A DNA stretch of 64,000 bases, from contig NZ_BFBR01000009.1 in assembly GCF_003112735.1 (NCBI RefSeq), forward strand, positions 62,001 to 126,000, written 5' to 3'. Shown one piece after another: positions 16,149 through 50,624 of the stretch (position 1 is the stretch's first letter; each line of letters opens with the position of its first letter). The position numbers and the translations under genes were made by a program. The notes under the pieces are model-generated. The model was not told the origin of the DNA, did not search any database, and worked only from the letters and a program-made list of their open reading frames with translations. This DNA is from Candidatus Phycosocius bacilliformis (lineage in GTDB: Bacteria > Pseudomonadota > Alphaproteobacteria > Caulobacterales > Aquidulcibacteraceae).

Positions 16149-16191
16149 TCCCCGCTGCATCCAGCCAGACCAGACCTTAAGGAGGAATTCC

Positions 16192-18582: not shown

Positions 18583-18607
18583 GCTCTCAAAATGAGTGAG
18601 TATCTTT

Positions 18608-26927: not shown

Positions 26928-26936
26928 CGACCTCTC

Positions 26937-29806: not shown

Positions 29807-29821
29807 GGTTATTGCTCTCGA

Positions 29822-32088: not shown

Positions 32089-33771
32089 TCAATGAACAGC
32101 CTGCAGCTGTATGATCCCGGTGCTCAAGGGCGGCAGATCAATTTCAATCGACCCCGCACTCGACTGAACCCCCACATCCCCTATCAGCAGGCGTGATCCC
32201 CGAAGGTTTGCAAGATCGACAGCCTCCCGCGTGAGACGGATGCGCCGGGCATGGTCAGATACATTCATGATCAGGACGTATTTCTCGTTTCCCAGAGATT
32301 TGAGATCTGCATACACATCTTGATCGGAAAAAAGATGTGTGCGGGCCCCGGATGACAGCGCTGGGCTGACTTTCCGTAAGGTCAGTAACTCGGTCAGGTA
32401 GGAGCGCAGTGCAAGCGCTTTGGGCAGCACTTCGGATTCTTTTGCATTGACCGGGGGCAATTTGACCATGTTTCGCGCAATGTGGTCATCACATGTCTGG
32501 CTTTTCCCGCAATTTTGTCCTGTCCGACCTGAAAAGCCCGGCACCTCGGCACCAAGCTCTTCGCCATAATAGAATGTAATCGGGCCCGACCACGCGGCCA
32601 TAAAGGTAAAGGCCAGACGATGGCGCGCCCAATAGGAATCGGCCTCTTGCCCTCCCTTGCCCGCCCGCTCAATCAGGTCACCGAAACGGACAAGGTCGTG
32701 ATTACCCAGCATGAGATTGGGGATGGCATGGTCAGGATAGTTGCTGTGGGCACCCAGTGCCCAAGGCTCCACCAAAGTCCTCGCGGGGCGGTTCTTTGTG
32801 CCGGCTTCGTCGCTGGCCAAGACCTGGACCAAGGCATAGCGAGTGGGAAAGTCGAAAGCGCTTGTCAGGCCCGGCGCCTCGCTCGTGCCATAGGCAGCGC
32901 GAATGTCATCCGCTTTCCGCCAGATTTCGCCAACGACATAGCCCGATTTTGGTCGAACAGAGGCCGCCTCCTCAACAATTTGGCTTAGGCGCGCCAATGC
33001 GGGATTGGGAAGCTGATAGGCCTGATCCAGTCGCCAACCATCTATGCCAAACCGCTCAATCCAATAGCGAGCCACTTCTTCATAAAAAGCGAGCGACTGG
33101 GGCTGATCGAAATCAACAACTTGGCCGGGATAATTTTCAGGGTGGCCAAAATAATCGCTAACCCGATTTGACGTTGCCGGAACAATGCCTGTTGGTGAGG
33201 GCGTGATCCCGCCTTTATGATGGCCGAACACACCATCAAATATGATCTTGATACCGCGCTGATGGGCTTGGTCGACAAGGGTGCGAACGTCGGCCTCGCT
33301 GCCAAACTGCGGATCGATCCGGAAATAATCGCGTGGATAATAGCCCGTTCCGTCGAGGCGTTGGTTGACCACCTTCTTGCCCGAGACCCTAAGCTGAGGC
33401 TCCCCGGCATGGGACTCAAATATGGGGGTGAGCCAAATCGCATTGAAGCCCATCGCTTGGATCATATCTAAAGACTGGATCACGCCGGCCAAATCTCCGC
33501 TATGGGGTCCTGGGCCATAGGCCGATCCTGCCCCGACGGCTCCATTGCCATCGACAAAGCTGCTGACCATCACTTGGTACAGTCTTAGATCACAATATGG
33601 GCTGGCTGCCCGGTTGCAGGGCAGACGCGCTTCGACAGGGCCTTGAGGCTTCTCAATAATCACGCGCTGGTTGTCTGCTTCAACCCGTGACGGGCCAAAG
33701 ATCACACCCAGACAAGCCCACAGCAATATTGATGCCTGCCCACCCAATCGCCAGAAAAAGCGTGCTGGCAT
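32089..33771 (-). CDS. Exported GH13 alpha-amylase family enzyme
   Basis: A 560-residue GH13 enzyme with an N-terminal signal sequence (GGQASILLWACLGVIFGP). The barrel has FNAIWLTPIFES, IIFDGVFGHH (an unusual form of the DxxxNH motif), the nucleophile aspartate in GIDGWRLDQAYQLP, the acid/base glutamate in YVVGEIWRK and the third aspartate in LMLGNHDLVRFGD. Two pairs of cysteines (CNRAASPYC and CGKSQTC) could form disulfides in the periplasm. A small C-terminal beta domain ends the protein. It follows malG by 4 bp, so it probably trims maltodextrins before ABC import. Exact bond specificity cannot be told. Confidence 0.9.
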   Translation of the reverse strand: MPARFFWRLGGQASILLWACLGVIFGPSRVEADNQRVIIEKPQGPVEARLPCNRAASPYCDLRLYQVMVSSFVDGNGAVGAGSAYGPGPHSGDLAGVIQSLDMIQAMGFNAIWLTPIFESHAGEPQLRVSGKKVVNQRLDGTGYYPRDYFRIDPQFGSEADVRTLVDQAHQRGIKIIFDGVFGHHKGGITPSPTGIVPATSNRVSDYFGHPENYPGQVVDFDQPQSLAFYEEVARYWIERFGIDGWRLDQAYQLPNPALARLSQIVEEAASVRPKSGYVVGEIWRKADDIRAAYGTSEAPGLTSAFDFPTRYALVQVLASDEAGTKNRPARTLVEPWALGAHSNYPDHAIPNLMLGNHDLVRFGDLIERAGKGGQEADSYWARHRLAFTFMAAWSGPITFYYGEELGAEVPGFSGRTGQNCGKSQTCDDHIARNMVKLPPVNAKESEVLPKALALRSYLTELLTLRKVSPALSSGARTHLFSDQDVYADLKSLGNEKYVLIMNVSDHARRIRLTREAVDLANLRGSRLLIGDVGVQSSAGSIEIDLPPLSTGIIQLQAVH

Positions 33772-33775
33772 CGTA

Positions 33776-34654
33776 TCAGCCCTTCACGCCACCAGCCGTC
33801 AGCCCGGAAACCAGGAAACGCTGCAACACGAGGAACAACGCCACTACGGGCAGCGACACCAAGATCGAACCAGCAGCAAAATAGCCCCATTGGCTGGAAT
33901 ATTCACTGACAAAGAAACGCAAGCCAACCGGGGCCGTATAAAGTGCCTCTTCGTCCATGAAGGTCGCCGCAAGAATGAATTCGTTCCAAGCTGTCATGAA
34001 GCTGAATAGCGCCGTCACGGCCACTGCCGGTCGGGCCAAGGGCAGGACGATCTGGAAGAAAATGCGCGAAGGGGAACAGCCATCCATGATCGCGCTTTCC
34101 TCGATCTCCATGGGGATGGAGTCAAAATAGCCCTTCAACATCCACACACAAAACGGAATCGCGGTCACTGAATAGACAATAACCAGCGCCCAGATTGAGT
34201 TATCAAGATCGAGCCAGTCGACAATAATGACATAGAGCGGGATCAACATCAGCGTGCCTGGAAACATTTGGGTGACCAGAAACAACGTCATCCCAAATTC
34301 CCGGCCTTTGAAGCGGAAGCGGGAAAAAGCATAACCTGCCGAGCAGGCCAATGCGACGCCAAATACAGTTGTCAATGCCGCAACAATCAAGCTGTTGAGC
34401 ATCCATTTCAGAAACGGCTGGTCTCGCAAGACGCCCACGAAATTATCAAGCGACCATTGTGTCGGCACCGGCGTGGCCGCGCGCATTCGGTCCCAGAAGC
34501 CAGGATTTGCCGGCAGATCGGCCAAGCCAATATTCTGTGTGCCCGAAAATGCCAGGGCCAGCACCCAGAAAATTGGATAGAGTGCCAGAAGGACGATGAT
34601 CATCAGGATCGGATGCAGCCAGAGCGGTGCCTTCTTGGTATCAGACGAGGTCAT
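33776..34654 (-). CDS. malG: Maltose/maltodextrin ABC transporter permease MalG-like
   Basis: A 292-residue inner-membrane permease with six predicted transmembrane helices, the first at LHPILMIIVLLALYPIFWVLALAF. The EAA loop that docks to the ATPase is IEESAIMDGCSPSRIFFQIVLPLARP. The C-terminal helix is SILVSLPVVALFLVLQRFLVSGLTAGGVKG, the typical MalG ending. Its start overlaps the malF stop by ATGA. Confidence 0.92.
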   Translation of the reverse strand: MTSSDTKKAPLWLHPILMIIVLLALYPIFWVLALAFSGTQNIGLADLPANPGFWDRMRAATPVPTQWSLDNFVGVLRDQPFLKWMLNSLIVAALTTVFGVALACSAGYAFSRFRFKGREFGMTLFLVTQMFPGTLMLIPLYVIIVDWLDLDNSIWALVIVYSVTAIPFCVWMLKGYFDSIPMEIEESAIMDGCSPSRIFFQIVLPLARPAVAVTALFSFMTAWNEFILAATFMDEEALYTAPVGLRFFVSEYSSQWGYFAAGSILVSLPVVALFLVLQRFLVSGLTAGGVKG

Positions 34655-36468
34655 TTGTTATTGGCCTCCGTGGCCGAGGTCGCGCGGATTTGGAAGACCC
34701 CATAAACCAAGAGAATGAGGAAGATCACCACCGAATAAGCCGCCGCATAGCCATAGCGATATTCTTCAAAGGCAATACGATATGCCCGTGTCACCAAAAT
34801 CTCATTGGCCCCCGACGGTTGACCAGCGCTGACGAGATAAATGACGTTGAACATGTTAAACGTCCAAACCACCGAAACAATGATGGCCGGCAGGAGCGCG
34901 GGCCGTAGGCTGGGAAGAGTGATGTACCAGAATTGTTGCCAGGGCGAGGCCCCGTCGATCCGGGCTGCCTCATACATATCCTCATCAACAGCCTGTAGCG
35001 CGCCGAGCGCGACAACCATCATGAAGGGAAAGGATAGCCAAGCATTGGTCGCAAGCCCGGTCATGAAGCTGGGCACCACATTATCGAACCATTGCACTGG
35101 CTGGCCGCCAAAGGCCTGAATCGCCTGATTGATCGCCCCAAATTGGGGATGGAACATCCCTTTCCAAGTGAGCGCCGTAATATAATTAGGAATAGCCCAA
35201 GGCAGAATAAGAAGCGTGCGATAAATGGCCACCCCACGCAGGCCCTTGATGTTGAGCAAGAGCGCCATCGCCAAGCCAATCGACACACCCAACACCACAT
35301 TGGAAATCGTCCAAACAATGGTGACACCCAATGTCCAGTAAAAGTTCTGGTAATTGAAGGCATTGCCACCGCCGCCGAAGTTAAAGTCGATCAGAATGGA
35401 CGCATAATTGGCAAACCCCACCCAGCGATCCGCCCAGCTCGCTCCCTGGTTGAGGAGTGTTGTGTCAGTGAAGGACAGGACAACACCATAGAAGAAGGGG
35501 AAAAAAGCCAAGAGCAACATGCCAATCAGCGCTGGGGCGACATAGGCATAAGCCGTTGGGTTTTCGGCGATCGCCTTCCAGCTCGCGTTCGCAGCACCAA
35601 ACCCGATAAAGGCACCCAGCAGCGCACCAAGCACGCCGGTCAGCAGCATGGAATGGCCCAGACCCGCTGCGTCCATCACAGCGCTCATCAGCTCTGGCTT
35701 AAACGGAGGGGGGGATCCAGCCATCAAAAGGCCCTGATTGGCGGCGACTGCACGCACAGCCTCACCCAGTATATTAAGTTCTTGGTTCATCTGGCTGATC
35801 AGGACTGGCGCATCCCCAGCCAGACCGGCCTGGGCAAGCTGGCCAAGCGCCAAGCCAGCTGCAAGCGGCAGAACAAGGCTGATCCAAGGCCCAAGAGCTT
35901 GCAGCCGCACCGCCAACGCGCAGGCGACGACCGTCACCAGACCCAAAAGCCCCCACTGCCAAAGCGCAATAAGGGGTGGGCCGGTCGGGCCCAAAGGCTT
36001 GACGATTTCCACCACCCCCACACGCTGACCATCGACAATGACCGGGGCCGCGGCGCGCGCACCCTCAGGTGTCATCGTTAGACTTACCCCCTCTGTGGGC
36101 ACTGAGAGGATGAGGTCATAGAGCGGCTTTTCTGAAATCTTCAAAGGCCGACCAGATTGACCCCCTGCAATTTCTTCAGGCCAATTGCTATGAACAAGCC
36201 GCTTCCCATCACGCAGGACAAGCCGATAGCGGTCGGTCTGCTGATCGGCCCGCGCCAAGCTGTCGGACAAGAGGGATGCCAGGGCTTGATCAGTCTGACC
36301 ATCTGTCAGTGCAACCGAGGTCAGCCCGGCAAGTTCAACGGCAATGGCCTTAGCAGCCATCCCAGCACTGAGTGCCTGACGATGTTGACTCGCCTGGGAT
36401 AGGAACACCAACGCGCCACACACAAGCAGCAGCATGGCCGAGACAATGGCTGTCAGATTTTGCTTCAT
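34651..36468 (-). CDS. malF: MalF-like permease with a large N-terminal extracytoplasmic extension
   Basis: A 605-residue protein, about twice the length of ordinary MalF-type permeases outside enterics. Residues from about 300 on are the permease: YAYVAPALIGMLLLAFFPFF, FYWTLGVTIVWTISNVVLGV, and the EAA loop EAARIDGASPWQQFWYITLPSLRP near 500-523. Before it lie a membrane anchor (7-23), an extracytoplasmic stretch (24-160) with RYRLVLRDGKRLVHSNWPEE and VIVDGQRVGVVEIVKPL, which looks like a PAS/CACHE-type sensor domain, two or three helices (about 165-215), a second outside loop (215-262) and another helix. The start at 36468 overlaps the malE stop (ATGA). The extension is not the P2 loop of E. 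coli MalF, which lies inside the permease. Confidence 0.88.
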   Translation of the reverse strand: MKQNLTAIVSAMLLLVCGALVFLSQASQHRQALSAGMAAKAIAVELAGLTSVALTDGQTDQALASLLSDSLARADQQTDRYRLVLRDGKRLVHSNWPEEIAGGQSGRPLKISEKPLYDLILSVPTEGVSLTMTPEGARAAAPVIVDGQRVGVVEIVKPLGPTGPPLIALWQWGLLGLVTVVACALAVRLQALGPWISLVLPLAAGLALGQLAQAGLAGDAPVLISQMNQELNILGEAVRAVAANQGLLMAGSPPPFKPELMSAVMDAAGLGHSMLLTGVLGALLGAFIGFGAANASWKAIAENPTAYAYVAPALIGMLLLAFFPFFYGVVLSFTDTTLLNQGASWADRWVGFANYASILIDFNFGGGGNAFNYQNFYWTLGVTIVWTISNVVLGVSIGLAMALLLNIKGLRGVAIYRTLLILPWAIPNYITALTWKGMFHPQFGAINQAIQAFGGQPVQWFDNVVPSFMTGLATNAWLSFPFMMVVALGALQAVDEDMYEAARIDGASPWQQFWYITLPSLRPALLPAIIVSVVWTFNMFNVIYLVSAGQPSGANEILVTRAYRIAFEEYRYGYAAAYSVVIFLILLVYGVFQIRATSATEANNK

Positions 36469-37751
36469 GCACGCCCCCCGGCTTGCGAGGCCCGCAAAGA
36501 CTGTATCGCCACCTGCACCTCTTTCTGACAATCATCCCAAGCAGCCTGGGCACTTGTTTCCATTTTGGTAAACCGCTTCATGGCCCGGTCTGCCGGTGAC
36601 CACACGAGGGTCATCTCTGGCTGATTGGGCATTGGCACGGCCAGTGCGCCCTGTGCCTTGAATGCACTAATGACCGAATTGCCCGCCAGTCGCGGATCGC
36701 CATAGGCAGCCGAAGACGCCGGCAATTGCCCACCGTCCAGCGCCAGGATGAGGGCCGCTTCAGGACCGGCAAGGAAACTGGCAAACTGCCAGGCCTCGTA
36801 TTCGTCCTGCGTTCCAGCTGCCAGATAAATGGCCTCGACCGTCATCCAAGGCCGGATGGGTCGGCCTCCGGCCTCGCTGATTTGCGGCAGAACAGCCACG
36901 CCCACATCAATATCCTTTGCCGCTTCGGCAAGGAACCAAGGCCCGCTCATCACCATTGCGGCGCGCTTTTCATTGAACAAGGCCGTGACCAAGGAATTTG
37001 CTGGATCGTCCGGCAGGAGACCCAGCTCACTGCGCCAGCGGCGGACCAGATTGCTCGCGGCAATATTGGCGGGATGATTGAGGATGAGTTCGCCTTGCTC
37101 ATCAAAAGCGCCACCGCCGAAGCCATTGGCAAGACCGGCATGGAAAAAATAATCGTCATAGGCATAGGCAAAGCCGAAGCGGCCGCGCGCCTTGTCGGTT
37201 AAACCTGTTGCCAAATCGACCATTTCAGCAGTGGTCTCGGGCGGGGCCTTGATACGGTCGCGATTGTAAATCAAGGCGGCCGATTTAAAATTGAGCGGGA
37301 GGGCATAAGTGATGCCGCGATAGGTCGTGGCGTCGAGCATGCCGGGCAAAAAGGCCGCCCGCTCGGCTGGGCCCAAAAAGAAGTCGATCGGAGCGACTGT
37401 GTTTCCGGTCTCGACCCAGCCGCCGAGCCGATCGTGGGAGAAGATGAACAGATCTGGGCCCTTGCCACGCGGAACAGCGGCGGAAATCTTGTCGGCAAAA
37501 GCGTCATTTGGTACCCCGACACAGCGCACAGGGCGGACCCTGCCGGCCTGCCGCGCCGAATAGAGCGCCGCCACCTTTTCGAGGGCTGCCTTCTCACGCC
37601 CGCGATACGCGTGCCACACCACCAATTCGGCCCGATGCCTTGCATTTGTCCGCGAGCAAGCCCCCAGCCAGGTCATGCCAGACAGCCCGATCCCTGTTGC
37701 CAGAATCGACCGCCTGGTGGGTGATCCCCCGTGATCGGCTGGGTCAGCCAT
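36465..37751 (-). CDS. malE: Maltodextrin-type ABC transporter substrate-binding lipoprotein
   Basis: A 428-residue extracellular solute-binding protein family 1 member. The leader has twin arginines (TRRSILATGIGLSG) and a lipobox WLGAC with the lipid cysteine at C32, so it is probably anchored to the inner membrane. The mature part starts LVVWHAYRGREKAALEKVA, contains GKGPDLFIFSHDRLG, ALPLNFKSAALIYNRD (hinge) and RRAAMVMSGPWF-like motifs, all usual for MalE relatives. It binds oligosaccharide for MalF and MalG. It lies 3 bp after malK and overlaps malF. Confidence 0.9.
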   Translation of the reverse strand: MADPADHGGSPTRRSILATGIGLSGMTWLGACSRTNARHRAELVVWHAYRGREKAALEKVAALYSARQAGRVRPVRCVGVPNDAFADKISAAVPRGKGPDLFIFSHDRLGGWVETGNTVAPIDFFLGPAERAAFLPGMLDATTYRGITYALPLNFKSAALIYNRDRIKAPPETTAEMVDLATGLTDKARGRFGFAYAYDDYFFHAGLANGFGGGAFDEQGELILNHPANIAASNLVRRWRSELGLLPDDPANSLVTALFNEKRAAMVMSGPWFLAEAAKDIDVGVAVLPQISEAGGRPIRPWMTVEAIYLAAGTQDEYEAWQFASFLAGPEAALILALDGGQLPASSAAYGDPRLAGNSVISAFKAQGALAVPMPNQPEMTLVWSPADRAMKRFTKMETSAQAAWDDCQKEVQVAIQSLRASQAGGRA

Positions 37752-37754
37752 CCC

Positions 37755-38861
37755 TTAGTCCCTCTCTGGCAGTCGCTGGTGAGTGACCGCATCAAAGAAA
37801 TGCGCTTTGTCGAGGTCAGCCTCAACCTGCACCATGTCGCCCATTTTGGGGCTGGGCTCTTGACCATGACTTTTGGCAATCAGGCTGGTGCCGTCGATAT
37901 CTAAGTGGATCAAGACCTCATGACCCAATGTTTCAACCATATCGACACGCCCGGTGAAACGGGCAGATGCTGCTGGCTTGCCCTGCCCTGCCAAGCGCAC
38001 ATCCTCTGGGCGCAAGCCGATCTCGATCCCCTCATGTGCCCCCAAATCCCAGCGCGCAGGCAGGTCAAAACCCGGACTGCCCGGCGCATGGATCGACCGG
38101 CCCTGTAGCCGACCTTGCAGAATCGACATGCTGGGTGCCCCGATGAACCGGGCGACAAACACATTGCGGGGCCGATGATAGAGTTCCAATGGCGCGCCGA
38201 CTTGCATCAGATTGCTGTCACCAGCCTCTGCCAAGGGGGCGAGGACGGCAATGCGATCACCCATGGTCATGGCTTCTGTCTGGTCGTGTGTGACATAAAC
38301 CGCCGTAGTGCCAAGGCGCTTTTGCAATCGCGAAATCTCGGCCCGCATGCCGGTGCGCAATTTGGCATCAAGATTGGACAAGGGCTCGTCAAACAAAAAG
38401 ACCGATGGGTCCCGCACGATGGCCCGGCCCAATGCGACCCGTTGGCGCTGGCCGCCTGACAATGCCTTGGGCTTGCGGTCAAGATAGGGATCAAGCCCCA
38501 GAATGGACGAAGCTTCTTGGACCCGTCGATCAATCTCGTCCTTTGGTGTTTTGCGCACTTCCAACCCGAAAGCGACATTTTGACGAACCGTCATGTGGGG
38601 ATAAAGCGCGTAGGATTGAAACACCATCGCCACGTCGCGGTCTTTTGGCTTGACGTCATTGACAATGCGATCCGCAATCCTGAGCTGTCCGGAGCTTACC
38701 GTTTCAAGCCCTGCAATCATGCGTAAGGCAGTGGACTTGCCGCACCCTGACGGGCCGACCAGCACCATGAATTCCCCGTCCCTGATCTCGAGAGACAGGT
38801 TCTTGATGACATCAGTTTCGCCATATCGCTTTGCGACGGATTGAAAAGTGATGCCAGCCAT
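37755..38861 (-). CDS. malK: ABC transporter ATPase, MalK/UgpC type
   Basis: A 368-residue ATPase. Walker A is GPSGCGKST, the Q loop VFQSYALYPHMTV, the ABC signature LSGGQRQRVALGRAI, Walker B VFLFDEPLSNLDAKLR and the switch histidine YVTHDQTEA. The C-terminal third is an MOP/TOBE regulatory domain (IGLRPEDVRLAG), where MalK proteins receive control signals. It is the first gene of the left arm and is divergently transcribed from the RpiR-type regulator over a 312-bp gap. Confidence 0.95.
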   Translation of the reverse strand: MAGITFQSVAKRYGETDVIKNLSLEIRDGEFMVLVGPSGCGKSTALRMIAGLETVSSGQLRIADRIVNDVKPKDRDVAMVFQSYALYPHMTVRQNVAFGLEVRKTPKDEIDRRVQEASSILGLDPYLDRKPKALSGGQRQRVALGRAIVRDPSVFLFDEPLSNLDAKLRTGMRAEISRLQKRLGTTAVYVTHDQTEAMTMGDRIAVLAPLAEAGDSNLMQVGAPLELYHRPRNVFVARFIGAPSMSILQGRLQGRSIHAPGSPGFDLPARWDLGAHEGIEIGLRPEDVRLAGQGKPAASARFTGRVDMVETLGHEVLIHLDIDGTSLIAKSHGQEPSPKMGDMVQVEADLDKAHFFDAVTHQRLPERD

Positions 38862-39173
38862 GCCGTCTTCCTGCCCCTGCTCACGCGCAGAAACCGAAAA
38901 TCACAGCCGTGGAGATGCGGGCCGATTGGCCGCGGGTCCATGCTTGCCGGACAAAAGTCGCCTTTTGGCAGCAAATGCCCACCCAGGTCTGCTTCTCTCC
39001 CCGACTGCAGTTTCCACCCTGTGGAGGGTTCGTCTGCCGTTCGTTTGTTTTGGTATTGCACATTTGATGTAGCAAAACTACAAAACCTACGCAACACGCG
39101 TTCAAGGATGGCATTGGGCGCAGAAAATGCGTATAAATCAAGTCAAGAAACAACAGTCGACAGGGGGGAAGCG
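38862..39173. promoter_or_regulatory. Divergent promoter region malK / rpiR
   Basis: A 312-bp gap between two divergent carbohydrate operons. The region near 39051-39090 holds a plausible promoter for the regulator: TTGCAC at 39056-39061, a 17-bp spacer and TACAAA at 39079-39084, with the palindrome at 39068-39082 overlapping spacer and -10. The regulator start is about 90 nt further on. No clear -35/-10 pair for malK stands out. The rest shows no coding character. Confidence 0.6.
39068..39082. promoter_or_regulatory. Putative RpiR/HexR-type operator TGTAGCAAAACTACA
   Basis: A 15-bp palindrome with 5-bp arms identical to those at 11584-11598. It covers the likely -10 region of the regulator gene, which suggests autorepression, and lies about 207 bp from malK. 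HexR of gammaproteobacteria binds a palindrome of the same length and arm start (TGTA...TACA) and loses affinity when KDPG binds its SIS domain. A KDPG-sensing role would fit the eda/edd operon nearby (inference). Confidence 0.6.
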
Positions 39174-40043
39174 GTGATCATCACTCAGATCGATTCGCAT
39201 CTTGCCCAATTGCGCCCTTCCGAACAGCGGGTCGCACGCTTTGTTCTGGGGCGGCCGACTGTTGTTGTAGAAATGTCGATTGCCGACTTGGCAGAGCGCG
39301 CCGAAGTGTCCGAACCCACCATCATGCGGTTCTGCAAGGCCATTGGCTGCATGGGCTTCATGGACTTCAAGCTTAGTCTGGCGCGCGACTTGGAACGCCG
39401 CACATTGTCCATGAGTCGGCAAAACCCGCACGTAAAGGGTCATAACGCCCTGGGTCAGGCTTTGTTTGAGCAGGTCACCAAGTCGCTGGGCCAACGCGGG
39501 GCGGCTCTGGGCCTCGACAATATGGATGAATTTCTCGAAATTTGTGCCGGCAGTGGGCAGATCATCATCCTGCATTCAGGCGCTGAGACTTTGTTCGCCG
39601 AAACCTTGGTCAAATCCCTGCGCGCCTGCGCGTTTGAAGTGTGTGATCAGACCGAAACACTAACAAGCGGTCGACGGGACTGCCTTCTGGTTATTGCCTT
39701 GAAGTCGGCCGGCCGCATGCCTGGGATCGAAACCTTCTTGAACGAAATTTGCGAGGCAGGTGGCCGTGTCGTCCTGATTGGCCATGCCGGTCTACCCGCC
39801 AGCTTTGCCCTTGGCCAATTGGGGTCGGATCTGGCAGATCATGTCGCCTATGCCGCCTTAATTGAGGCAATTAGACTGGGGATTGAGGCGCGGCTATCGA
39901 CATCTGGGCATTTTTCCCAAGCTGATTCTGAAATGCTGCAATCTCAGCGAGAGATGGCCTATGACGACGCCCGTCGGCGCGACCGGCAAACTGCAGAGCA
40001 GGGTGACACTGCCGAGCGCCTCATGATCAAGGGGACAGGTTGA
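39174..40043 (+). CDS. RpiR/HexR-family transcriptional regulator
   Basis: A 289-residue regulator with an N-terminal RpiR-type helix-turn-helix (LRPSEQRVARFVL, MSIADLAERAEVSEPTIMRFCKAIG) and a C-terminal SIS sugar-phosphate domain (GQIIILHSGAETLFAETL, GGRVVLIGHA). This arrangement is that of HexR, which represses zwf, edd and eda in other bacteria and is relieved by KDPG. I take the GTG at 39174 because GGGGGGAA precedes it and the frame upstream lacks family similarity. Its stop overlaps the glgB ATG (TGATG), so regulator and glycogen genes are one transcript. The natural targets are probably the palindromes at 39068 and 11584. Whether it is a true HexR orthologue is open. Confidence 0.88.
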   Translation: MIITQIDSHLAQLRPSEQRVARFVLGRPTVVVEMSIADLAERAEVSEPTIMRFCKAIGCMGFMDFKLSLARDLERRTLSMSRQNPHVKGHNALGQALFEQVTKSLGQRGAALGLDNMDEFLEICAGSGQIIILHSGAETLFAETLVKSLRACAFEVCDQTETLTSGRRDCLLVIALKSAGRMPGIETFLNEICEAGGRVVLIGHAGLPASFALGQLGSDLADHVAYAALIEAIRLGIEARLSTSGHFSQADSEMLQSQREMAYDDARRRDRQTAEQGDTAERLMIKGTG

Positions 40044-42301
40044 TGGCCATCAGAACCCGGAAACAAAAGCCAGTGGCCGATACGCCGCTGCACACCACAC
40101 ACACAATGTCCACAGACCTTGCCCATCCCGATGAAATTGCTGCCTTAATCGGCGGCCGCCACGCCAACCCGTTTGCCTTTCTCGGACCCCATCTTGACGA
40201 GGCGGCCTCGACGTGGATCATCCGGTGTTTCCTGCCAGGGGCAGAAAGCGTGGCTGTGGTGTTCGAGGACCAAGCGGTGGAGATGGTCCAGCTCCATAAG
40301 GAGGGTCTGTTCGCGGCGCGCATCGAACTAGTCCCCGGGCGCCCACATTATCACTTTAAGGCAAGATGGGACGGCCGGGACATCGCTCTTGAAGATCCTT
40401 TTCGCTTCCCTGTCATCCTCAATGGGAAGGAAATCTTGAGGTTCCGACAAGGCCAGCTGTGGCGGGCCTGGGAAACCCTGGGTGCACGAAGCCTGACACT
40501 TGAGGGGGTTCACGGCTTTGCCTTTGCCGTCTGGGCACCAGCAGCACAGCGGGTGTCAGTGGTCGGACCCTTCAATAATTGGGACGGTCGCCGTCACATC
40601 ATGCGCAAGCTGCATGATGCGGGCATATGGGAGATTTTCATCCCCGGCCTGTCAGTTGACGACATTTACAAGTACGAAATCATTGGGGCGGACGGCAGTT
40701 TACAGCCTCTCAAATCCGACCCCTTTGGCCAGGCCGCCGAAGTGCGCCCTGCCAATGCCAGCCGCTTGGTGGAGCCGGTTAAGGCTAATAATCAAGACCA
40801 GAATTGGCTGGAAAACCGCCATAGCCGCCATGGACTTGATGCACCCATTTCCGTCTATGAAGTTCATGCCGGCTCTTTCAGGCGTAAGCCTGAAGAGGGA
40901 AACCGCCCCCTCACCTATGGCGAATTGGGTGACTGGCTGATCCCTTATGTACGCGAGATGGGCTTTACCCATGTTCAATTCATGCCACTCACCGAATATC
41001 CCTTCGACGGGTCCTGGGGTTATCAACCTGTCGGCATGTATGCGGTGACGAGTCGGTATGGCTCTCCCGATGAGTTCCGTGACTTGGTTGCCCGCCTGCA
41101 TGCCGCCGATATCGGGGTCTTGTGCGATTTTGTTCCCGCCCATTTCCCAATTGATGGCCATGGTCTCAACCGTTTCGACGGGACAGCCCTTTATGAACAT
41201 GCCGACCCCCGGCTGGGCTTCCACCCTGATTGGAAGACCAATATTTACGATTTCACCAAGCCGGAAGTGGTCAATTTTCTGGTCTCATCGGCCCTCTATT
41301 GGCTCGACCGGTTCAAGATTGATGGGCTTCGCGTCGATGCGGTCAGCTCGATGCTCTATTTGGACTATTCGCGCGCTGAAGGTGAGTGGATACCCAATAT
41401 CTATGGCGGCAACATCAATCTGGAAGCCGTCCAATTCATGCGTCGCCTCAATGAGATGTGCTATGGTGAAGCCGATGGCATCATGATGGTGGCTGAGGAG
41501 TCCACCGCTTGGGCCGGTGTGTGCAAGCCGACCTATGACGGCGGTCTGGGCTTCGGGTTCAAATGGAACCTTGGCTGGATGCATGACACCCTGCAATATA
41601 TGAGCCGAGATCCCATACATCGCGCTTGGCACCATGGCGAGATCACGTTTGGGCTGGCCTATGCTTGGTCGGAGAACTTCATGCTGGCCCTCAGCCATGA
41701 TGAAGTTGTCCATGGCAAGGGATCCATTTTCTCGCGCATGCCTGGGGATGATTGGCAGCGCTATGCCAATCTGCGGGCCTATTACGCCCTCATGTGGGCT
41801 CATCCTGGCAAAAAGCTGATTTTCATGGGGGCTGAATTCGCCCAAGTCGCTGAATGGAATTATGAAGGCAGCCTTGATTGGCACCTGCTCGACCAACCTG
41901 GTCATCGCGGCGTGCAGTCCTTGGTGCGCGATCTCAACCATCTGTATCGATCATTGCCCGCATTGCATCAGCGCGATTGCGACCCTTCAGGCTTTGACTG
42001 GGTACAAGCCGATGCCGCTGATGTGTCGGTCTTTGCTTTCCTGCGCTGGAACCATGACCGCAGCGAGAAGCTGTTGGCTTTGATCAACATGACGCCTGTC
42101 CCCCGAACAGAGTATCGGGTCGGGGTGCCCCATGCCGGTCGCTGGAAAGTGATCCTCAACACAGATTCTGCCGCTTATCACGGCTCGAATTATGATGGTC
42201 CCGACCAAGTGGAAGCCGAGGCTGTGGCCTTCAATGGCCAGCCTCACTCGATCGTCCTGACCCTGCCTCCCTTGGCGGGCCTCTATCTGATCCCCGCATA
42301 G
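40043..42301 (+). CDS. glgB: 1,4-alpha-glucan branching enzyme
   Basis: A 752-residue GH13 branching enzyme. Two N-terminal CBM48-like modules contain NPFAFLGPH and VWAPAAQRVSVVGPFNNWDGR. The barrel has YEVHAGSF, FDGSWGYQPVGMYAVTSRYG, the nucleophile aspartate in IDGLRVDAVSSMLYLDYSR, the acid/base glutamate in MMVAEESTAW and the third aspartate in LSHDEVVHGKGS. It forms alpha-1,6 branches in glycogen. The ATG at 40043 shares a base with the regulator stop. No glgA or glgC is in the window, so glycogen synthesis must be completed from elsewhere. Confidence 0.96.
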   Translation: MAIRTRKQKPVADTPLHTTHTMSTDLAHPDEIAALIGGRHANPFAFLGPHLDEAASTWIIRCFLPGAESVAVVFEDQAVEMVQLHKEGLFAARIELVPGRPHYHFKARWDGRDIALEDPFRFPVILNGKEILRFRQGQLWRAWETLGARSLTLEGVHGFAFAVWAPAAQRVSVVGPFNNWDGRRHIMRKLHDAGIWEIFIPGLSVDDIYKYEIIGADGSLQPLKSDPFGQAAEVRPANASRLVEPVKANNQDQNWLENRHSRHGLDAPISVYEVHAGSFRRKPEEGNRPLTYGELGDWLIPYVREMGFTHVQFMPLTEYPFDGSWGYQPVGMYAVTSRYGSPDEFRDLVARLHAADIGVLCDFVPAHFPIDGHGLNRFDGTALYEHADPRLGFHPDWKTNIYDFTKPEVVNFLVSSALYWLDRFKIDGLRVDAVSSMLYLDYSRAEGEWIPNIYGGNINLEAVQFMRRLNEMCYGEADGIMMVAEESTAWAGVCKPTYDGGLGFGFKWNLGWMHDTLQYMSRDPIHRAWHHGEITFGLAYAWSENFMLALSHDEVVHGKGSIFSRMPGDDWQRYANLRAYYALMWAHPGKKLIFMGAEFAQVAEWNYEGSLDWHLLDQPGHRGVQSLVRDLNHLYRSLPALHQRDCDPSGFDWVQADAADVSVFAFLRWNHDRSEKLLALINMTPVPRTEYRVGVPHAGRWKVILNTDSAAYHGSNYDGPDQVEAEAVAFNGQPHSIVLTLPPLAGLYLIPA

Positions 42302-42313
42302 AAAGCGGCACGG

Positions 42314-44413
42314 ATGTTGGTGAAACTGACACCTGGTAGCCCTGCCCCCATGGGTGCGACGCCGGTAGAAGGCGGGGTGAATTTCGCCGTGTTCAGTGCG
42401 CATGCCGTCCGGGTTGAATTGGTAATCTTCTCCCCCGATGGCAGGGCCGAAATCGGGCGTGCGGACTTGCCCGCACGCGATGGAGACATTTGGCATGGCT
42501 TTGCCCCGCGGCTGGGGTCTGGCACCGTTTATGGCTATCGAGTTCATGGGCCGTATCAGCCAAGCCAAGGCCATTTGTTTAATCCGCACAAATTGCTGCT
42601 TGATCCCTATGCCAAGTCGCTGACCGGCAGTTTCAGTTGGGGACCTGAGCATTATGGCTATTTTTATGAAAGCCACGATCCCGACTCTCAGGCCGATACG
42701 AGGGACAATGCCGCGCGTTGTGTGAAGGCCGTGGTGGTCGATCCGTCGACTTTGCCCCCTCTTCCAAGTCATTCTGCCCGGCCCTGGCGTGACACCATCA
42801 TTTACGAAATGCACGCCAAAGGCTTCACCATGATGATGCCCGGCTTGTCGGACCGCGAGAAGGGAACATTGGCAGGCCTGTCGACACCGGCCGCACTGGA
42901 TTATTTGAGTGCGCTGGGTATCACCACGCTTGAACTCCTACCGCTGCATCATTTCATCCATGACCGGTTTCTGGTGGACCAAGGGCTCAAGAATTATTGG
43001 GGCTACAACACTCTGAATTATTTCGTGCCTCAGCTTGAGTATGGCATGGAGGACAGCAAAACGGAGATGCGTCGTTTTGTTGAAGCCGCTCATGACCGCA
43101 AACTCGATGTCTGGATTGACGTGGTCTATAATCACACGTGCGAAGGAAATCGGCATGGCCCGACTTTGGCGTACCGGGGCCTCGACAATGCCTCATATTA
43201 TCGCCTGAACCCGCAAAACCCTGCACAATATGATGACATCAGCGGATGTGGTGCAACGTTGAACGCGGCCCACCCACAGGTTCAGGCGCTGATCGTTGAA
43301 TCACTGTCTCATTGGGCCGAATTCTATGGCATTGACGGCTTCCGCTTTGACATTGCCCCGTCGCTCTCATTGGACACTTCTGGCCGCTTCAACTCACACG
43401 GGCCCATTTTTGATGCAATTCGACGCGATCGACGGCTGACTGGCAAACGTCTGGTCGCCGAAGCTTGGGACGCCCGCGGGGGCTATTATGTTGGAGACTT
43501 CCCGCTTGATTGGGCTGATTGGAACGGCAAGGCACGCGACAGCATCCGCCAATTCTGGCGCGGTGATCAGGATAAAGCGCGCGACTTTGCCAAGGCGTTG
43601 GCTGGCTCACCGGATTTGTTTCGTCACAAGGGCAAACCAGTATCCGCCAGCGTCAATTTCGTGACCTGCCATGATGGCTTCCCGCTGGTCGACCTAACCC
43701 GGTATTCCCGCAAGCATAATCACGGCAATGGCGAGAATAATCGCGATGGTGGAGATCACGACTTTTCCGCCAATTATGGTGTTGAAGGCCCGAGTGGGGA
43801 TGACAAGATCACCCACCTGCGCGAACGCCAAGCACGCAACATGCTGACCAGCGCTTTCATGTGCTTTGGCACGCCAATGCTGTTGGCAGGCGATGAAATC
43901 GGTCGCACGCAAGGCGGCAACAATAACGCCTATTCACAGGACAATCCGGTCAGCTGGATCGATTGGTCCTTGCTGCAGACCAAGGCCGGGGCAAGCCAAT
44001 TGTCCTTCACCCGCCAACTGATCAGCTTGCGCAAGCAGATGTTTGCCGGTTTTCCCGATGGCCATCCCAATGGTGTGGGAGAGCGAGAGCCCACCATCAG
44101 CTGGTGGACGGTCTGGGGCCGCCCCATGTGCCCGGACGACTGGGCCGATCCGCTGACACACTGTTTTGCCGCCATTTATGAGCCCGGTGGCTGGCTGATC
44201 TTGATCAATGCCAGCGCCGAGGATGCCAATTTCATTCTGCCCCCGACGGCAGCGGGCATCTGGCGACTAGCACTTTCAACCGCGGACCCGTCGCGGCCCG
44301 CCGGCGAACATGTGGCTGCGGGTGGACAGACCCTGAAACTGCCTGCCCACAGCCTGAAGATTTTTTCCCACGACCCCAGCAGAAAGATAGGAAAGACCGG
44401 ACATGGCTTTTGA
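42314..44413 (+). CDS. glgX: Glycogen debranching enzyme GlgX
   Basis: A 699-residue isoamylase-type GH13 enzyme. A CBM48 module (GGVNFAVFSAHAVRVELVIF) is followed by YEMHAKGFT, YWGYNTLNYFVPQ, DVVYNHTCEGN, the nucleophile aspartate in IDGFRFDIAPSLS, the glutamate in LVAEAWDARGGY and the third aspartate in VTCHDGFPLVDL. LLAGDEIGRTQGGNNNAYSQD is a GlgX hallmark. It removes short outer branches from phosphorylase-limit glycogen. It lies 12 bp after glgB and overlaps malQ by 11 bp. Confidence 0.96.
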   Translation: MLVKLTPGSPAPMGATPVEGGVNFAVFSAHAVRVELVIFSPDGRAEIGRADLPARDGDIWHGFAPRLGSGTVYGYRVHGPYQPSQGHLFNPHKLLLDPYAKSLTGSFSWGPEHYGYFYESHDPDSQADTRDNAARCVKAVVVDPSTLPPLPSHSARPWRDTIIYEMHAKGFTMMMPGLSDREKGTLAGLSTPAALDYLSALGITTLELLPLHHFIHDRFLVDQGLKNYWGYNTLNYFVPQLEYGMEDSKTEMRRFVEAAHDRKLDVWIDVVYNHTCEGNRHGPTLAYRGLDNASYYRLNPQNPAQYDDISGCGATLNAAHPQVQALIVESLSHWAEFYGIDGFRFDIAPSLSLDTSGRFNSHGPIFDAIRRDRRLTGKRLVAEAWDARGGYYVGDFPLDWADWNGKARDSIRQFWRGDQDKARDFAKALAGSPDLFRHKGKPVSASVNFVTCHDGFPLVDLTRYSRKHNHGNGENNRDGGDHDFSANYGVEGPSGDDKITHLRERQARNMLTSAFMCFGTPMLLAGDEIGRTQGGNNNAYSQDNPVSWIDWSLLQTKAGASQLSFTRQLISLRKQMFAGFPDGHPNGVGEREPTISWWTVWGRPMCPDDWADPLTHCFAAIYEPGGWLILINASAEDANFILPPTAAGIWRLALSTADPSRPAGEHVAAGGQTLKLPAHSLKIFSHDPSRKIGKTGHGF

Positions 44414-45932
44414 TCGCGTGAGTGGCATCTTGCTCCACCCCTCCAGCTTGCCCGGCCCCTATGGTGTGGGTGAAATTGGCGATGAGGCCATGACCTTCAT
44501 CGATGCCCTGGCCGATGCTGGCCAGAAGGTGTGGCAAATCCTGCCGATCAATGCGACTGGAAACAATGCTAGCCCTTATTCGGCGACCACCACATTTGCC
44601 GCCAATCCGCTCCTGATCGATATTGATGGCCTCATTGAGGCGGAGTTGCTGAGCCATGAGGAAGTTGCCCATCTCAAAGAGCTGCCTCAGGAAAAGGTCG
44701 ACTATGAGGTCACGGTTCCAGCGCGGCTCGCAGTGTTGCATATGGCCGGTCGTCGCTTGGCCACAAAGCCAAATCATCCACTTGCGCCAGGATTAGCAGC
44801 CTTCAAGGCCCGGCATGGGCGTGCCTGGCTTGACGATTATGCGCTGTTCGAGGCGATTTCGGTCTCGCGCCAGCGGCAGGGTTGGATGCATTGGCCTGAT
44901 GGGCTTCGCGCCCGTGATCCTGAGGCACTCGCACAAGCCCGGACAGATTTGGCAGAAGACATTGCCGCCATCGAGGCCTTGCAATTTCTGTTTGACTTGC
45001 GCTGGCAGCGCTTGCGCCGGCATGCAGAATCCAAGGGCATTATGATTATTGGCGATATGGCTATTTTTGTTGCCCATGATTCAGCCGATGTCTGGGCTCG
45101 GCCTGACCTGTTTAAGCTGGATGAGGACTTCAACACCCGTGTCGGGGCGGGCGTTCCCCCGGATTACTTCAGCGCAACTGGCCAGTTATGGGGAAATCCC
45201 ATCTATGAATGGGACAAGATGGCCGATGAAGGCTTCTCTTGGTGGATCGCCCGTATGCGACGGCTGCTGGATTTTGCCGACGCTGTGCGTATCGACCACT
45301 TCCGCGGTTTTGCAGCATGCTGGGAAACTCCCGCAGGCGAAACCACTGCCATCAATGGCCAATGGGTTGAAGTACCCGGAGATGCGCTATTCACTGCAAT
45401 TACACAGGCTTTGCCAGATCTTAAGGTGATCGCCGAGGATCTCGGACACATCACCGAGGATGTCATTGCGTTGCGTGATAAGTTCGATTTTCCTGGTTTG
45501 AAGATCCTCGAGTTTGAGTTTGGCAATGGCGCGCCACGTGATGAACGTCACCCCTATCACTATCCGGCGTCTACAGTGTGCTACCCCAGCACGCATGATA
45601 ACAATACAGTGATTGGCTGGTTCAAAAATGATGGACGAGAGGCTGAAGCCCGGGCCCCGGACGCAGCCCGGGAAGCCGCAGCCGCACTTGAACTCCTAGG
45701 AGGGGACGGAAGTGACTTAAATTGGCGCTTCATCGAGTTAGCCCTCCAATCAGGCTCAAGTTTGGCCATAATCGCTTTGCAAGACGTTTTGGGCTTGGAT
45801 GGTAACGGGCGGATGAATACACCTGGGACCATTGACGATAATTGGAACTGGCGTTTTCAGGCGGGTGATTTCGGGCCTGCACATCGTCAACGTTTGCACA
45901 GCCTGACCCAAAAATATGGACGATTGACCTGA
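44403..45932 (+). CDS. malQ: 4-alpha-glucanotransferase (amylomaltase)
   Basis: A 509-residue GH77 enzyme. It begins RVSGILLHPSSLPGPYGVGEIG, and has QILPINATGNNASPYSA, GVPPDYFSATGQLWGNPIYEW, the nucleophile in VRIDHFRGFAACWE, the glutamate in VIAEDLGHITEDV and PSTHDNNTVIGWF with the third acid. It transfers maltodextrin chains and frees glucose, which links imported maltodextrin to glucokinase. The first four codons overlap glgX and its stop shares a base with the next start (TGATG). Confidence 0.96.
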   Translation: MAFDRVSGILLHPSSLPGPYGVGEIGDEAMTFIDALADAGQKVWQILPINATGNNASPYSATTTFAANPLLIDIDGLIEAELLSHEEVAHLKELPQEKVDYEVTVPARLAVLHMAGRRLATKPNHPLAPGLAAFKARHGRAWLDDYALFEAISVSRQRQGWMHWPDGLRARDPEALAQARTDLAEDIAAIEALQFLFDLRWQRLRRHAESKGIMIIGDMAIFVAHDSADVWARPDLFKLDEDFNTRVGAGVPPDYFSATGQLWGNPIYEWDKMADEGFSWWIARMRRLLDFADAVRIDHFRGFAACWETPAGETTAINGQWVEVPGDALFTAITQALPDLKVIAEDLGHITEDVIALRDKFDFPGLKILEFEFGNGAPRDERHPYHYPASTVCYPSTHDNNTVIGWFKNDGREAEARAPDAAREAAAALELLGGDGSDLNWRFIELALQSGSSLAIIALQDVLGLDGNGRMNTPGTIDDNWNWRFQAGDFGPAHRQRLHSLTQKYGRLT

Positions 45933-48880
45933 TGCACCCTAATGAGTCTTCGCCCCGGGACCGCCTCGAATATTGGTTCGGGCACATAGAGGCAATCTTT
46001 CTTAATCGCTTGAGTCCCGAGGCAGGCCTTCTGCCAGCCAGCACAGCCAAGACCGTCCATGGCGATTACGCTCATGCGTGGGTCCGCGACAACGTTTATT
46101 CGATCTTGGGCGTTTGGGGGCTGGCTTGCGCATTTCGTCGCCATGGACAAGGGGATCCCCGGGGTAGCCATCTGGAGGAGTGCGTAGTCCGGCTTATGCG
46201 AGGCTTGCTGTCTGCGATGATGGGACAGGCCGACAAAGTCGAACGGTTTAAGTATACTCAGGACCCTCTCGACAGCCTCCATGCAAAATATGATGCAGCG
46301 ACTGGCAAGCCGGTCGTGGGCGATGCCCACTGGGGCCATTTGCAGATCGATGCAACGTCCCTTTTCCTTTTATTCTTGGCTCAAATGACCGCGGGTGGTC
46401 TGAAAATCGTGTCACAGGCGGAGGAGGTCGATTTTGTCCAAAACCTCGTTCACTATATCGGACCAGCTTATCGGATTGCAGATTATGGCATCTGGGAACG
46501 TGGCCGTAAGTCGAATGACGGCGTAGTCGAGATTAACGCCAGCTCAGTTGGGCTCGCCAAAGCCGCATTGGAATCGATGTCAGGTCTGGATTTTGGGTGC
46601 TTTGACCGTGGCCCGATTCAAGTTGCTCCAGATGATATCGCCCGTGCCCGCGAAACCTTGCAAGTGTTGCTACCGGGCGAGTCTGCATCGAAAGAAACCG
46701 ATGCAGCGCTACTGGCTGTTGTTGGTTGGCCGGCCTTTGCGGTCGACGACAAAGTGATGGTGGCTCACACACGCGGACGGGTGTTGGACCGTTTGGCTGG
46801 TCGCTATGGGTGTAAGCGCTTCCTGCGGGACGGGCACCAAACCACGGTCGAAGACGAGCACCGCCTGCATTATCTAGCCGGGGAATTGTTGAAGTTCGCC
46901 AATATCGAGTCTGAATGGCCCCTCTTCTTCACCTACCTTTTGGTTGACGCTGAAATGACAGGGGACCATCGAGGGGGTGAAACTTGGGCAGACCGGCTTG
47001 AACCCTTATTTCAAATCCGCGACGGTTTACCCCTGCTACCGGAGCTCTATTATGTCGATGCCAACCTTGTTGAGGCCGAGGCCTCTCAACCAGGCAGCCA
47101 AGAACGGGTTGCCAATACCAATCTTCCATTGCTTTGGGCGCAGTCACAATGGGCATTAGGGGCCATGTTGAAAGAGGGCTTATTGGAGCCCCAAGACATA
47201 GATCCACTGGGCCGTCGTCATCATCTAGACCGGCGAGCCCAACCCGAAATTGCCTTTTCGATTGTTGCGCAAGACGAGCATACGGCTAAGATTCTAGCGC
47301 TTCATGGCTTTAGAGTTGAGACGATGGCCGAAGTACAATCTCACGCAATGGTCCGTCCGGCGGGAGATCTGGTGAGCGTCTGGACACACATTGGTGCTAA
47401 CTGCGACTTGGGGCTAACTGGCAGACCGGATAAACGGTTGGGGCCATTGGCTAACGCCTATGTCTATCAGGTTGCAGGTCAGCCGCTTGTGTTTTCACCA
47501 ACTCTCCTCGATGCGCATGATCACCATATCCGCTATGATGCTGCCGCGCGGGCACGTCGGTTGCGCGGGGATTTGCGCTATCTGGCGCGCCACTGGCGAG
47601 GGAGTGATAATCCTATCTTCGTTCTATGCTTGGATGCAGCTGCAATTGGTGGAACCGGCGTAGAGCGCCTGATTGGCCTGTTGCACGAGGTTGAACGCGG
47701 CCAGGTGGATTTTGTTCGTACAAGACTATGCTGTTTGCGAGAAGCTTTGGCCACTCAGTCACATTGGCGTGACCTCGGACCGGCTCTTCCACCGCTTGGG
47801 CTAGAACCATCCCAATTGATCGGGCTCGCATCATCCCTGACCTCCCCCAGTCAAGGGCTTGAAGAGGCCATTACTAATGGGGATTTAGGCTATGCTGAGG
47901 CCATGTATCATGCTGCCGGACTGATGGGTGATTGGTCAACAGCTCGCAAAGCAGCTGCTTGGCTGCAACGGACGGACCCCCGGCTACAGGATTCGGCCAA
48001 GGACATTGTCGTGCGGCTCCGACGGCTTGCCTTGGGCGAAGGGCGTGTCATCACCCGGCCGATTACAGAGCCTGATCTGGTAAAGTTGGTTGAAGAAGGC
48101 CTGCAGTCCAAACTCCATGCTGTAATCGCCCAAGAGGTTCTGCAGGCGCTTGGTCTATTCAGCAAGGCAGATTCAACAGCCGTCAAAGGTATGCGAACAA
48201 TCCGATTGACAGAAATTGTGCGGCGTTTAGCTCAGGAAGAAGACGGTGGTATGGACAATTTGATAGCCGAACCGCCAAGCGTAATATTCGACCGAGTTAA
48301 GGCAATCCTGCTGGAAACTCCATCTGTACGGGCGGTCGTCTCCCCTGCCCCGAACTTTGCACTCACTCCCTCAGCTAATGTCATTGCAGGAGACTGGGAA
48401 CGCTGGCGGGACCGTCTGGGTGTCTTAACCCGGGTCGGCAGCGACTTCTTCGCCCGGCTGTGGTCGTTGCTCCATGTCTGCCCAGGGATTGTATTTGGCG
48501 CAAATAATCGACTGGACGCCGCGATTGCCCGTTCAGACTTGACGGCCTGGGAAAAGGACTTTGCCCTAGAGATTGAGGTCCGGCTCGAATCGATAAGGGA
48601 CCCCTCATATCGCACCTTTTGTCTGGAAGCTTTAAATGTACTTGCTAATCGCCATGAGCAAGATCCAGACTTTCGCTTGGATCAAGACATTATTCTCGAT
48701 GGACTGATCCATGACGCTGTCGCCGTCATATGGCGCGAGGCCGGACATGGGGAACCTGATTGGCAATACCCTGAACCAATCTGGTCCCTGGCGCGTCAGG
48801 CGGATGCTCAAACCATGGCCATGGCGATATATCAATGCTGCCGAAGCGACACCCGCCAGCCAGAGGCTGCTTGCAGTTAG
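45932..48880 (+). CDS. Phosphorylase kinase alpha/beta-like protein (GH15-like fold)
   Basis: A 982-residue protein that resembles the regulatory alpha and beta subunits of animal phosphorylase kinase. The N-terminal (alpha/alpha)6 GH15-like domain holds HAWVRDNVYSILGVWGLA, LMRGLLSAMMGQADKVERFKY, DSLHAKYDAATGKPVVGD, HWGHLQIDATSLFLLFLAQM, YGIWERGRKSNDG and INASSVGLAKAALE. From memory these segments are near-identical to human PHKA. The middle and C-terminal parts (VYQVAGQPLVFSPTLLDAHD, YRTFCLEALNVLANRHEQ) also follow that pattern. No kinase (gamma) subunit, calmodulin or glgP is nearby. It is the last gene of the glgB-glgX-malQ unit. It could be a glucan-binding regulator or a glycosidase; activity is not known. 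Confidence 0.88.
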   Translation: MHPNESSPRDRLEYWFGHIEAIFLNRLSPEAGLLPASTAKTVHGDYAHAWVRDNVYSILGVWGLACAFRRHGQGDPRGSHLEECVVRLMRGLLSAMMGQADKVERFKYTQDPLDSLHAKYDAATGKPVVGDAHWGHLQIDATSLFLLFLAQMTAGGLKIVSQAEEVDFVQNLVHYIGPAYRIADYGIWERGRKSNDGVVEINASSVGLAKAALESMSGLDFGCFDRGPIQVAPDDIARARETLQVLLPGESASKETDAALLAVVGWPAFAVDDKVMVAHTRGRVLDRLAGRYGCKRFLRDGHQTTVEDEHRLHYLAGELLKFANIESEWPLFFTYLLVDAEMTGDHRGGETWADRLEPLFQIRDGLPLLPELYYVDANLVEAEASQPGSQERVANTNLPLLWAQSQWALGAMLKEGLLEPQDIDPLGRRHHLDRRAQPEIAFSIVAQDEHTAKILALHGFRVETMAEVQSHAMVRPAGDLVSVWTHIGANCDLGLTGRPDKRLGPLANAYVYQVAGQPLVFSPTLLDAHDHHIRYDAAARARRLRGDLRYLARHWRGSDNPIFVLCLDAAAIGGTGVERLIGLLHEVERGQVDFVRTRLCCLREALATQSHWRDLGPALPPLGLEPSQLIGLASSLTSPSQGLEEAITNGDLGYAEAMYHAAGLMGDWSTARKAAAWLQRTDPRLQDSAKDIVVRLRRLALGEGRVITRPITEPDLVKLVEEGLQSKLHAVIAQEVLQALGLFSKADSTAVKGMRTIRLTEIVRRLAQEEDGGMDNLIAEPPSVIFDRVKAILLETPSVRAVVSPAPNFALTPSANVIAGDWERWRDRLGVLTRVGSDFFARLWSLLHVCPGIVFGANNRLDAAIARSDLTAWEKDFALEIEVRLESIRDPSYRTFCLEALNVLANRHEQDPDFRLDQDIILDGLIHDAVAVIWREAGHGEPDWQYPEPIWSLARQADAQTMAMAIYQCCRSDTRQPEAACS

Positions 48881-50223: not shown

Positions 50224-50255
50224 ATACGTGAGATCAGATAAGGAAGGGAAACACC

Positions 50256-50624
50256 ATGGCTAAAGCACCAAGCCTTGCAGCACGGCTGGCCGCCGTCGCG
50301 GCTCAGCCCAACGGAGCCGCCTTTGCGACCAGCAATTCAGTCGCCGCAGAAATCGCAGCCCAACCTGAGCAGCCTTTTAAGCCCCCTTTAGCAGCGGAGC
50401 CCAGAGTGCAAACCTATGCGCCTCCAAGCTTTGCTCTGCCATCAGCTGCCAAGCCAAAGGCGCGCGACGGTCGGGTCATGGTCGCGGGCTATTTCAGTCC
50501 AGAACTGTCTCGGTCTTTGCGCATTCTAGCTGCCGAACGGGATGTCACAATCCAACATCTCGTCGGCGAGGGGCTCGATTTTGTTCTGCGGCATTATGGC
50601 AAGCACCCGATGGGCGAACGTTAG
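50256..50624 (+). CDS. Small ribbon-helix-helix protein, putative ParB-like partner of ParA
   Basis: A 122-residue protein. The first 75 residues are low-complexity, rich in alanine, proline and lysine, and probably disordered. The last 45 (VMVAGYFSPELSRSLRILAA, then ERDVTIQHLVGEGLDFVLRH) form a typical ribbon-helix-helix DNA-binding fold. An RHH protein with a disordered tail encoded right after a short ParA is the pattern of type Ib centromere-binding proteins, whose tail stimulates the ATPase. AAGGAAGGG provides a ribosome site. An alternative is an orphan RHH antitoxin, but no toxin gene is adjacent. Confidence 0.8.
   Translation: MAKAPSLAARLAAVAAQPNGAAFATSNSVAAEIAAQPEQPFKPPLAAEPRVQTYAPPSFALPSAAKPKARDGRVMVAGYFSPELSRSLRILAAERDVTIQHLVGEGLDFVLRHYGKHPMGER

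Follow-up and report, generated by a model that had tools for sequence, protein, structure and literature searches.

What does a close relative of the alpha and beta subunits of phosphorylase kinase (PhK) do in a bacterium, where its gene follows malQ in an operon of alpha-glucan enzymes? PhK is one of the earliest protein kinases to have been studied. The reason for the glucoamylase-like domain in its huge alpha and beta subunits is still an open question, and so is the role of that domain (PMC10978961). Finding this domain intact in a protein encoded in a bacterial malQ operon offers a concrete answer to test, namely that the domain was once a glucose-releasing enzyme, and would make the bacterial protein a guide to what the PhK subunits did before kinase regulation. 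Sequences of bacterial family members are already known, as illustrated by our control genome, Synechococcus elongatus, which scores with the Pfam model of the PhK C-terminal domain (KPBB_C). In the open-access literature we found no paper on bacterial PhK homologues; within the open papers searched, what appears to be new is the evidence that these proteins are likely enzymes, together with a specific difference from human alpha.

A predicted five-domain PhK alpha/beta homologue

Within the window, the stretch of 64,000 nucleotides analysed here, the PhK-like gene occupies 45932..48880 on the + strand, starts with ATG and encodes 982 amino acids. The open reading frame is real, and its product contains the segments that a sequence-only reading of this DNA had likened to animal PHKA. 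Pfam matches were obtained for GH15 (E 4e-53) and KPBB_C (E 9e-32), and no NCBIfam model matched the protein. When PDB sequences were searched with phmmer, human PHKA1 (E 1e-154) and PHKB (E 6e-130) were recovered and nothing besides these at E 0.01; likewise, when a profile was built from the D1 domain (45932..47221, + strand in the window) of the bacterial proteins, PhK alpha and beta were its only significant matches, and even at a threshold of E 10 no ordinary GH15 enzyme appeared in the list. In aligned D1-D2 columns the protein is 43.4% identical to PHKA1 and 35.2% to PHKB, and the two human proteins are 42.5% identical to one another over D1-D2. Both searches place the homology of D1 with PhK alpha/beta and not with other GH15 proteins, and at the level of sequence the resemblance is real and far beyond chance. 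A canonical GH15 profile run against the PDB was set aside, having returned only designed PPR/alpha-solenoid proteins, which are spurious; a single glucoamylase query was used in place of that profile for the PDB comparison with the GH15 enzyme TtGA.

VIA-align matched 898 residues of a full-length AlphaFold2 model (pLDDT 83, pTM 0.87) to PhK alpha (Z 45.2), structural alignment to PhK beta extended over about 914 residues (Z 39.3), and GH15 enzymes matched over D1 (Z 20-28). The D1 model alone (pLDDT 84.6, with modest confidence in the active-site loops) gave Z 48 to PhK alpha, Z 30 to the isomaltose glucohydrolase KfIG (5z3a) and Z 28 to the Thermoanaerobacterium glucoamylase TtGA (1lf6). 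On this model the protein has each of the domains D1-D5 that PMC10978961 describes for PhK, in the fold of PHKA1 and PHKB, and its D5-like C-terminal domain comprises residues 819-977. The close PhK kinship that had been proposed, and for which structure prediction and comparison with PhK and GH15 had been suggested as a check, is thus borne out by phmmer, Pfam, identity and fold; and since the D1 profile matches only PhK alpha/beta in the PDB, the protein is not an ordinary bacterial glucoamylase lacking a PhK relationship.

The gene follows malQ in a putative maltodextrin operon

Directly upstream lies malQ, encoding a GH77 4-alpha-glucanotransferase (44403..45932, + strand, E 1e-161), whose TGA stop shares one base with the ATG of the PhK-like gene (...ACCTGATGCACC..., TGATG), confirming the one-base coupling reported earlier. 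The gene order is regulator, glgB, glgX, malQ, PhK-like, all on the + strand: an RpiR/HexR-type regulator (38841..40043, PF01418 E 7e-20), whose true start is probably downstream of the listed one, because its orthologues have 289 aa; the branching enzyme gene glgB (40040..42301, TIGR01515 E 1e-259, with TTG as its listed start); and the debranching enzyme gene glgX (42314..44413, TIGR02100 E 6e-235), which overlaps malQ by 11 bases. On the - strand, a divergent maltose-type ABC transporter (33776..38861) consists of an ATPase (37755-38861), a solute-binding protein (36465-37751) and permeases (34651-36531 and 33776-34654), and is accompanied by a GH13 alpha-amylase-type protein (32089..33771) and by zwf, pgl-like, edd, glucokinase (26937-27917) and eda-like genes (26298..32001; NCBIfam models identify zwf, edd and glk, and the names of pgl and eda come from sequence), which together provide for glucose phosphorylation and the Entner-Doudoroff pathway.

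The locus had been read as a glycogen operon. Its glgB, glgX and malQ genes are indeed present, but the genome, rated 100% complete, has no glycogen phosphorylase (GlgP; PF00343) and no GT5 glycogen synthase. Because of these absences, and given the divergent maltose-type transporter, the GH13 amylase and the Entner-Doudoroff genes, maltodextrin utilisation fits better. The arrangement resembles MalQ/GlgX/GlgP catabolism of maltodextrin and glycogen in having MalQ, GlgX and GlgB with an adjoining transporter, and differs from it in that GlgP is absent and a PhK-like gene follows malQ in the operon.

The same absence bears on whether the protein might act as a regulatory subunit in a bacterial complex resembling phosphorylase kinase. 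Its homology to PhK alpha/beta, which extends to D5, through which human alpha binds the kinase, would be in keeping with such a role. Unlike PHKA1 and PHKB, however, it is encoded in a maltodextrin operon of a genome without GlgP, which also leaves the previously proposed GlgP pull-down without a target here, and its neighbourhood has no kinase gene, as had been noted. The sole Pkinase-domain protein found in the genome carries a Usp domain and is encoded on another contig, and no recurrent kinase gene adjoins the family in the loci read; this role is strongly disfavoured. A RIO kinase 5 kb upstream of a gammaproteobacterial copy (L026) was set aside as a candidate partner, being absent from the sister locus (L027). 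The protein ends in ...QPEAACS and so lacks a CaaX farnesylation motif.

GH15 catalytic residues are conserved in bacteria and altered in human PhK

In GH15 enzymes the general acid and base are Glu residues in the alpha5-6 and alpha11-12 loops, and a Tyr in the alpha1-alpha2 loop contacts the base (TtGA Tyr337, KfIG Tyr48), with an Asp at subsite -1 (TtGA Asp344) (PMC12446779). All of these have counterparts in the PhK-like protein. In an hhalign comparison with ordinary GH15 proteins from the same bacterial order, E189 (46496..46498, + strand), the predicted general acid, falls on GIWE, and E371 (47042..47044, +), the predicted general base, falls on LSED; they correspond to Glu185 and Glu371 of PHKA1, the pair named in PMC10978961, the second being Lys408 in PHKB. 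Y46 (46067..46069, +) is the equivalent of the base-contacting Tyr and lies in a motif, Y...W.RD, common to canonical GH15 proteins, with spacing to D53 (Y46-AHAWVR-D53) equal to that in the PDB sequence of TtGA (Y337-HLVWSR-D344). Of the canonical GH15 proteins inspected, nearly all had this Tyr; the L169 locus yielded no clean reading frame. W134 (46331..46333, +), in the motif W..[IL]Q[IL]D, is the equivalent of TtGA Trp390, which has been described as common to alpha-1,4-specific glucoamylases. E189, E371, Y46, W50, R52, D53 and W134 are each present in all of the 94 bacterial relatives compared. The two catalytic carboxylates that had been singled out as a check are therefore both present, and these residues lend support to the earlier option of an ancestral GH15-like enzyme.

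Likeness to TtGA (1LF6) and KfIG (5Z3A) thus includes the (alpha/alpha)6 barrel and the catalytic Glu pair, although identity is only 12-19%, the PhK-type domains D2-D5 are additional, and D1 begins at the N-terminus, without the N-terminal domain of TtGA. In inverting GH15 enzymes known so far, a Gln comes next after the base (TtGA Gln637); here that residue is Leu372. The position varies within GH15: dextran dextrinase has Ser, and some GH15 relatives from the order Caulobacterales have Asp.

A conserved Glu pair does not by itself prove mechanism in GH15: Gluconobacter dextran dextrinase has both Glu residues but is a retaining transglucosidase (PMC12446779). The PhK-like protein could accordingly be an active GH15 member with another reaction, as a transglucosidase or as a hydrolase of trehalose or of alpha-1,6, alpha-1,2 or alpha-1,3 links, and Leu372 in place of the usual Gln would suit this. 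Yet the pair P370-E371 is like the Pro-Glu of the inverting enzymes KfIG and AgGD and unlike the Gly-Glu found in dextran dextrinase, W134 corresponds to the Trp that alpha-1,4-specific glucoamylases share, and glucokinase genes adjoin the family elsewhere (see below), making a different reaction quite unlikely.

Near-invariant positions make up 31% of D1, compared with 3-5% of D2 and the remainder and 7.5% of D5 alone, and two shortened relatives keep D1 without the middle third (window residues about 431-818); this concentration in D1, and its retention in the shortened proteins, support a glucan glucohydrolase.

Human PhK alpha keeps both Glu residues yet showed no glucoamylase activity (PMC10978961). 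At the place of the base-contacting Tyr, PHKA1 has a six-residue deletion (LLPASY------DQKDAWVRD) and no Tyr at that position, whereas the HGxY loop (window residues 43-46) is invariant in bacteria; so too is a DGHQ motif including H302-Q303, which reads DGYK in human alpha. The missing Tyr may be a simple reason for the inactivity of human alpha, which would then be traceable to a specific residue.

Distribution and phylogeny

A scan of bacterial and archaeal genomes yielded at least 568 confirmed relatives. The best 80 of these are mainly from Cyanobacteria, with others from Methylobacter and other Methylococcales, Hyphomonadaceae and a Campylobacterales MAG; the nearest named relative of the window protein is from a Hyphomonadaceae MAG. 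The gene was present in 7/9 genomes of the genus, 11/101 genomes of the relatives set and 8/398 genomes of the phylum.

A D1-D2 tree groups human alpha with human beta (95/89) and joins this pair to a cyanobacterial branch (95/95), apart from the lineage of the window; when beta was left out, alpha still grouped with cyanobacteria at lower support (91/84). Cyanobacterial relatives reach 55% identity to human alpha, more than alpha shares with beta (42.5%). Since only two eukaryotic sequences, both on long branches, were included, this placement is provisional. The similarity to an animal protein had also raised the prospect of recent horizontal acquisition from a eukaryote. This did not hold up: given at least 568 diverse bacterial relatives, a human pair that joins cyanobacteria with the window lineage separate, and a GH15 Tyr kept by bacteria and absent in PHKA1, such an origin is highly improbable.

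Genomic partners point to free glucose

Among the 101 genomes of the relatives set, 12 have malQ, and the PhK-like gene was found in 11/12 of these and in 0/89 others (Fisher p 8e-14); by genus the figures are 5/6 with malQ and 0/23 without (p 5e-5), the genomes compared in both tests being related and hence not independent. Two genomes of the same genus as the window lack both genes, which suggests joint loss or gain of the cluster. One relative has an in-frame fusion of MalQ (GH77) to a shortened PhK-like protein (L025:2-3613, 1203 aa), which lacks window residues about 431-818. The fusion gene adjoins a GH13-type protein, and at a related locus (L024) a short PhK-like copy lies beside GH13 and GH97 genes.

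Glucokinase genes lie directly 3' of the PhK-like gene in six Methylococcales loci (L109, L071, L063, L073, L097, L104) and in a Campylobacterales MAG locus (L111), with gaps of -17 to +13 nt across the seven; in the last, glucokinase is followed by zwf, edd and eda. In two related gammaproteobacteria the PhK-like gene adjoins glgB and glgX, and clustering of neighbours revealed no functional link in the cyanobacterial loci. In passages of a methanotroph study, glycogen-derived free glucose is described as being handled by Glk and Gdh (glucose dehydrogenase) and is attributed to MalQ acting on glycogen fragments; GH15 has no match in its text (PMC8062543). Taken together, the malQ overlap, the co-occurrence, the fusion, and the placement of glucokinase as the next gene in methanotrophs and one campylobacterial genome make free glucose the likely product.

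These associations also bear on the idea of a non-catalytic glucan sensor, whose GH15 pocket would bind maltodextrin and which would regulate MalQ, GlgX or GlgB by contact, much as PhK alpha/beta do with their kinase. The tight malQ link and the malQ fusion would fit this, as would the conserved multi-domain scaffold and the lack of glucoamylase activity in human alpha despite both Glu residues. Against it stand the full catalytic set, invariant in 94/94 relatives and including the Tyr absent from PHKA1, and the glucokinase operons, which point to glucose as a product; we regard a sensor as unlikely.

Phosphorylase was found in 0/11 of the PhK-like-positive genomes of the relatives set, where the anticorrelation between the two genes is not significant by itself. 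Two complete gammaproteobacterial genomes (G254 and G282) likewise have the PhK-like gene and no phosphorylase, and a genome of the same genus as the first (G239) has phosphorylase. Most of the cyanobacteria and methanotrophs checked also have phosphorylase-family genes.

A probable cytoplasmic glucan glucohydrolase

On the evidence of its sequence and gene context, the PhK-like protein is probably an enzyme and not a kinase regulator. With a probability of roughly 70%, we propose that it is a cytoplasmic, exo-acting alpha-1,4-glucan glucohydrolase of GH15 type within the PhK alpha/beta family, which works with MalQ and GlgX and feeds glucokinase and the Entner-Doudoroff pathway. This proposal builds on homology and fold, on the conserved residues, on operon, co-occurrence and fusion, and on the lack of GlgP. 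It is the simplest account that accommodates the absence of phosphorylase together with a full active site, the partnership with malQ and the operons containing glucokinase. Imported maltodextrins would be reshaped by MalQ and GlgX/GlgB, and their non-reducing ends would bind in the (alpha/alpha)6 barrel, where E189 would act as acid and E371 as base in an inverting mechanism, with Y46 holding the base, R52 and D53 at subsite -1 and W134 beyond +1. Glucose would thereby be freed for the glucokinase and Entner-Doudoroff enzymes encoded nearby. D2-D5 probably serve in oligomerisation or as a glucan-binding scaffold.

Counted against a glucohydrolase are Leu372, the inactivity of human alpha despite both Glu residues, the phosphorylase-family genes of most cyanobacteria and methanotrophs checked, the lack of functional neighbours in cyanobacteria, the modest confidence of the active-site loops, and a second GH13 enzyme, resembling alpha-glucosidase, encoded elsewhere in the window's genome (L118), which may provide another route to glucose. 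If true, the glucohydrolase assignment would put a name to a glucose-producing step that is missing in methanotrophs, cyanobacteria and bacteria without phosphorylase. We lean, with some reserve, towards the wider view that bacterial PhK alpha/beta-type proteins form a distinct class of active cytoplasmic glucan glucohydrolases operating with MalQ and glucokinase, of which the animal subunits would be inactive descendants, alpha having lost the loop with the base-holding Tyr and beta the base itself.

Other features of the window

Just 3' of the operon (49522-51836), the window encodes replication initiator protein A (RPA, E 2e-76) along with a ParA-type ATPase and a ribbon-helix-helix protein resembling an antitoxin. 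In the congeners read, too, the PhK-like gene has a ParA gene after it; the operon may therefore be on a plasmid or secondary replicon. No match was found in plasmid records. Further upstream (14580-19531), a tryptophan-halogenase family protein (E 9e-196) is encoded beside a pullulanase-like GH13 protein and an esterase, possibly as a separate starch-use cluster.
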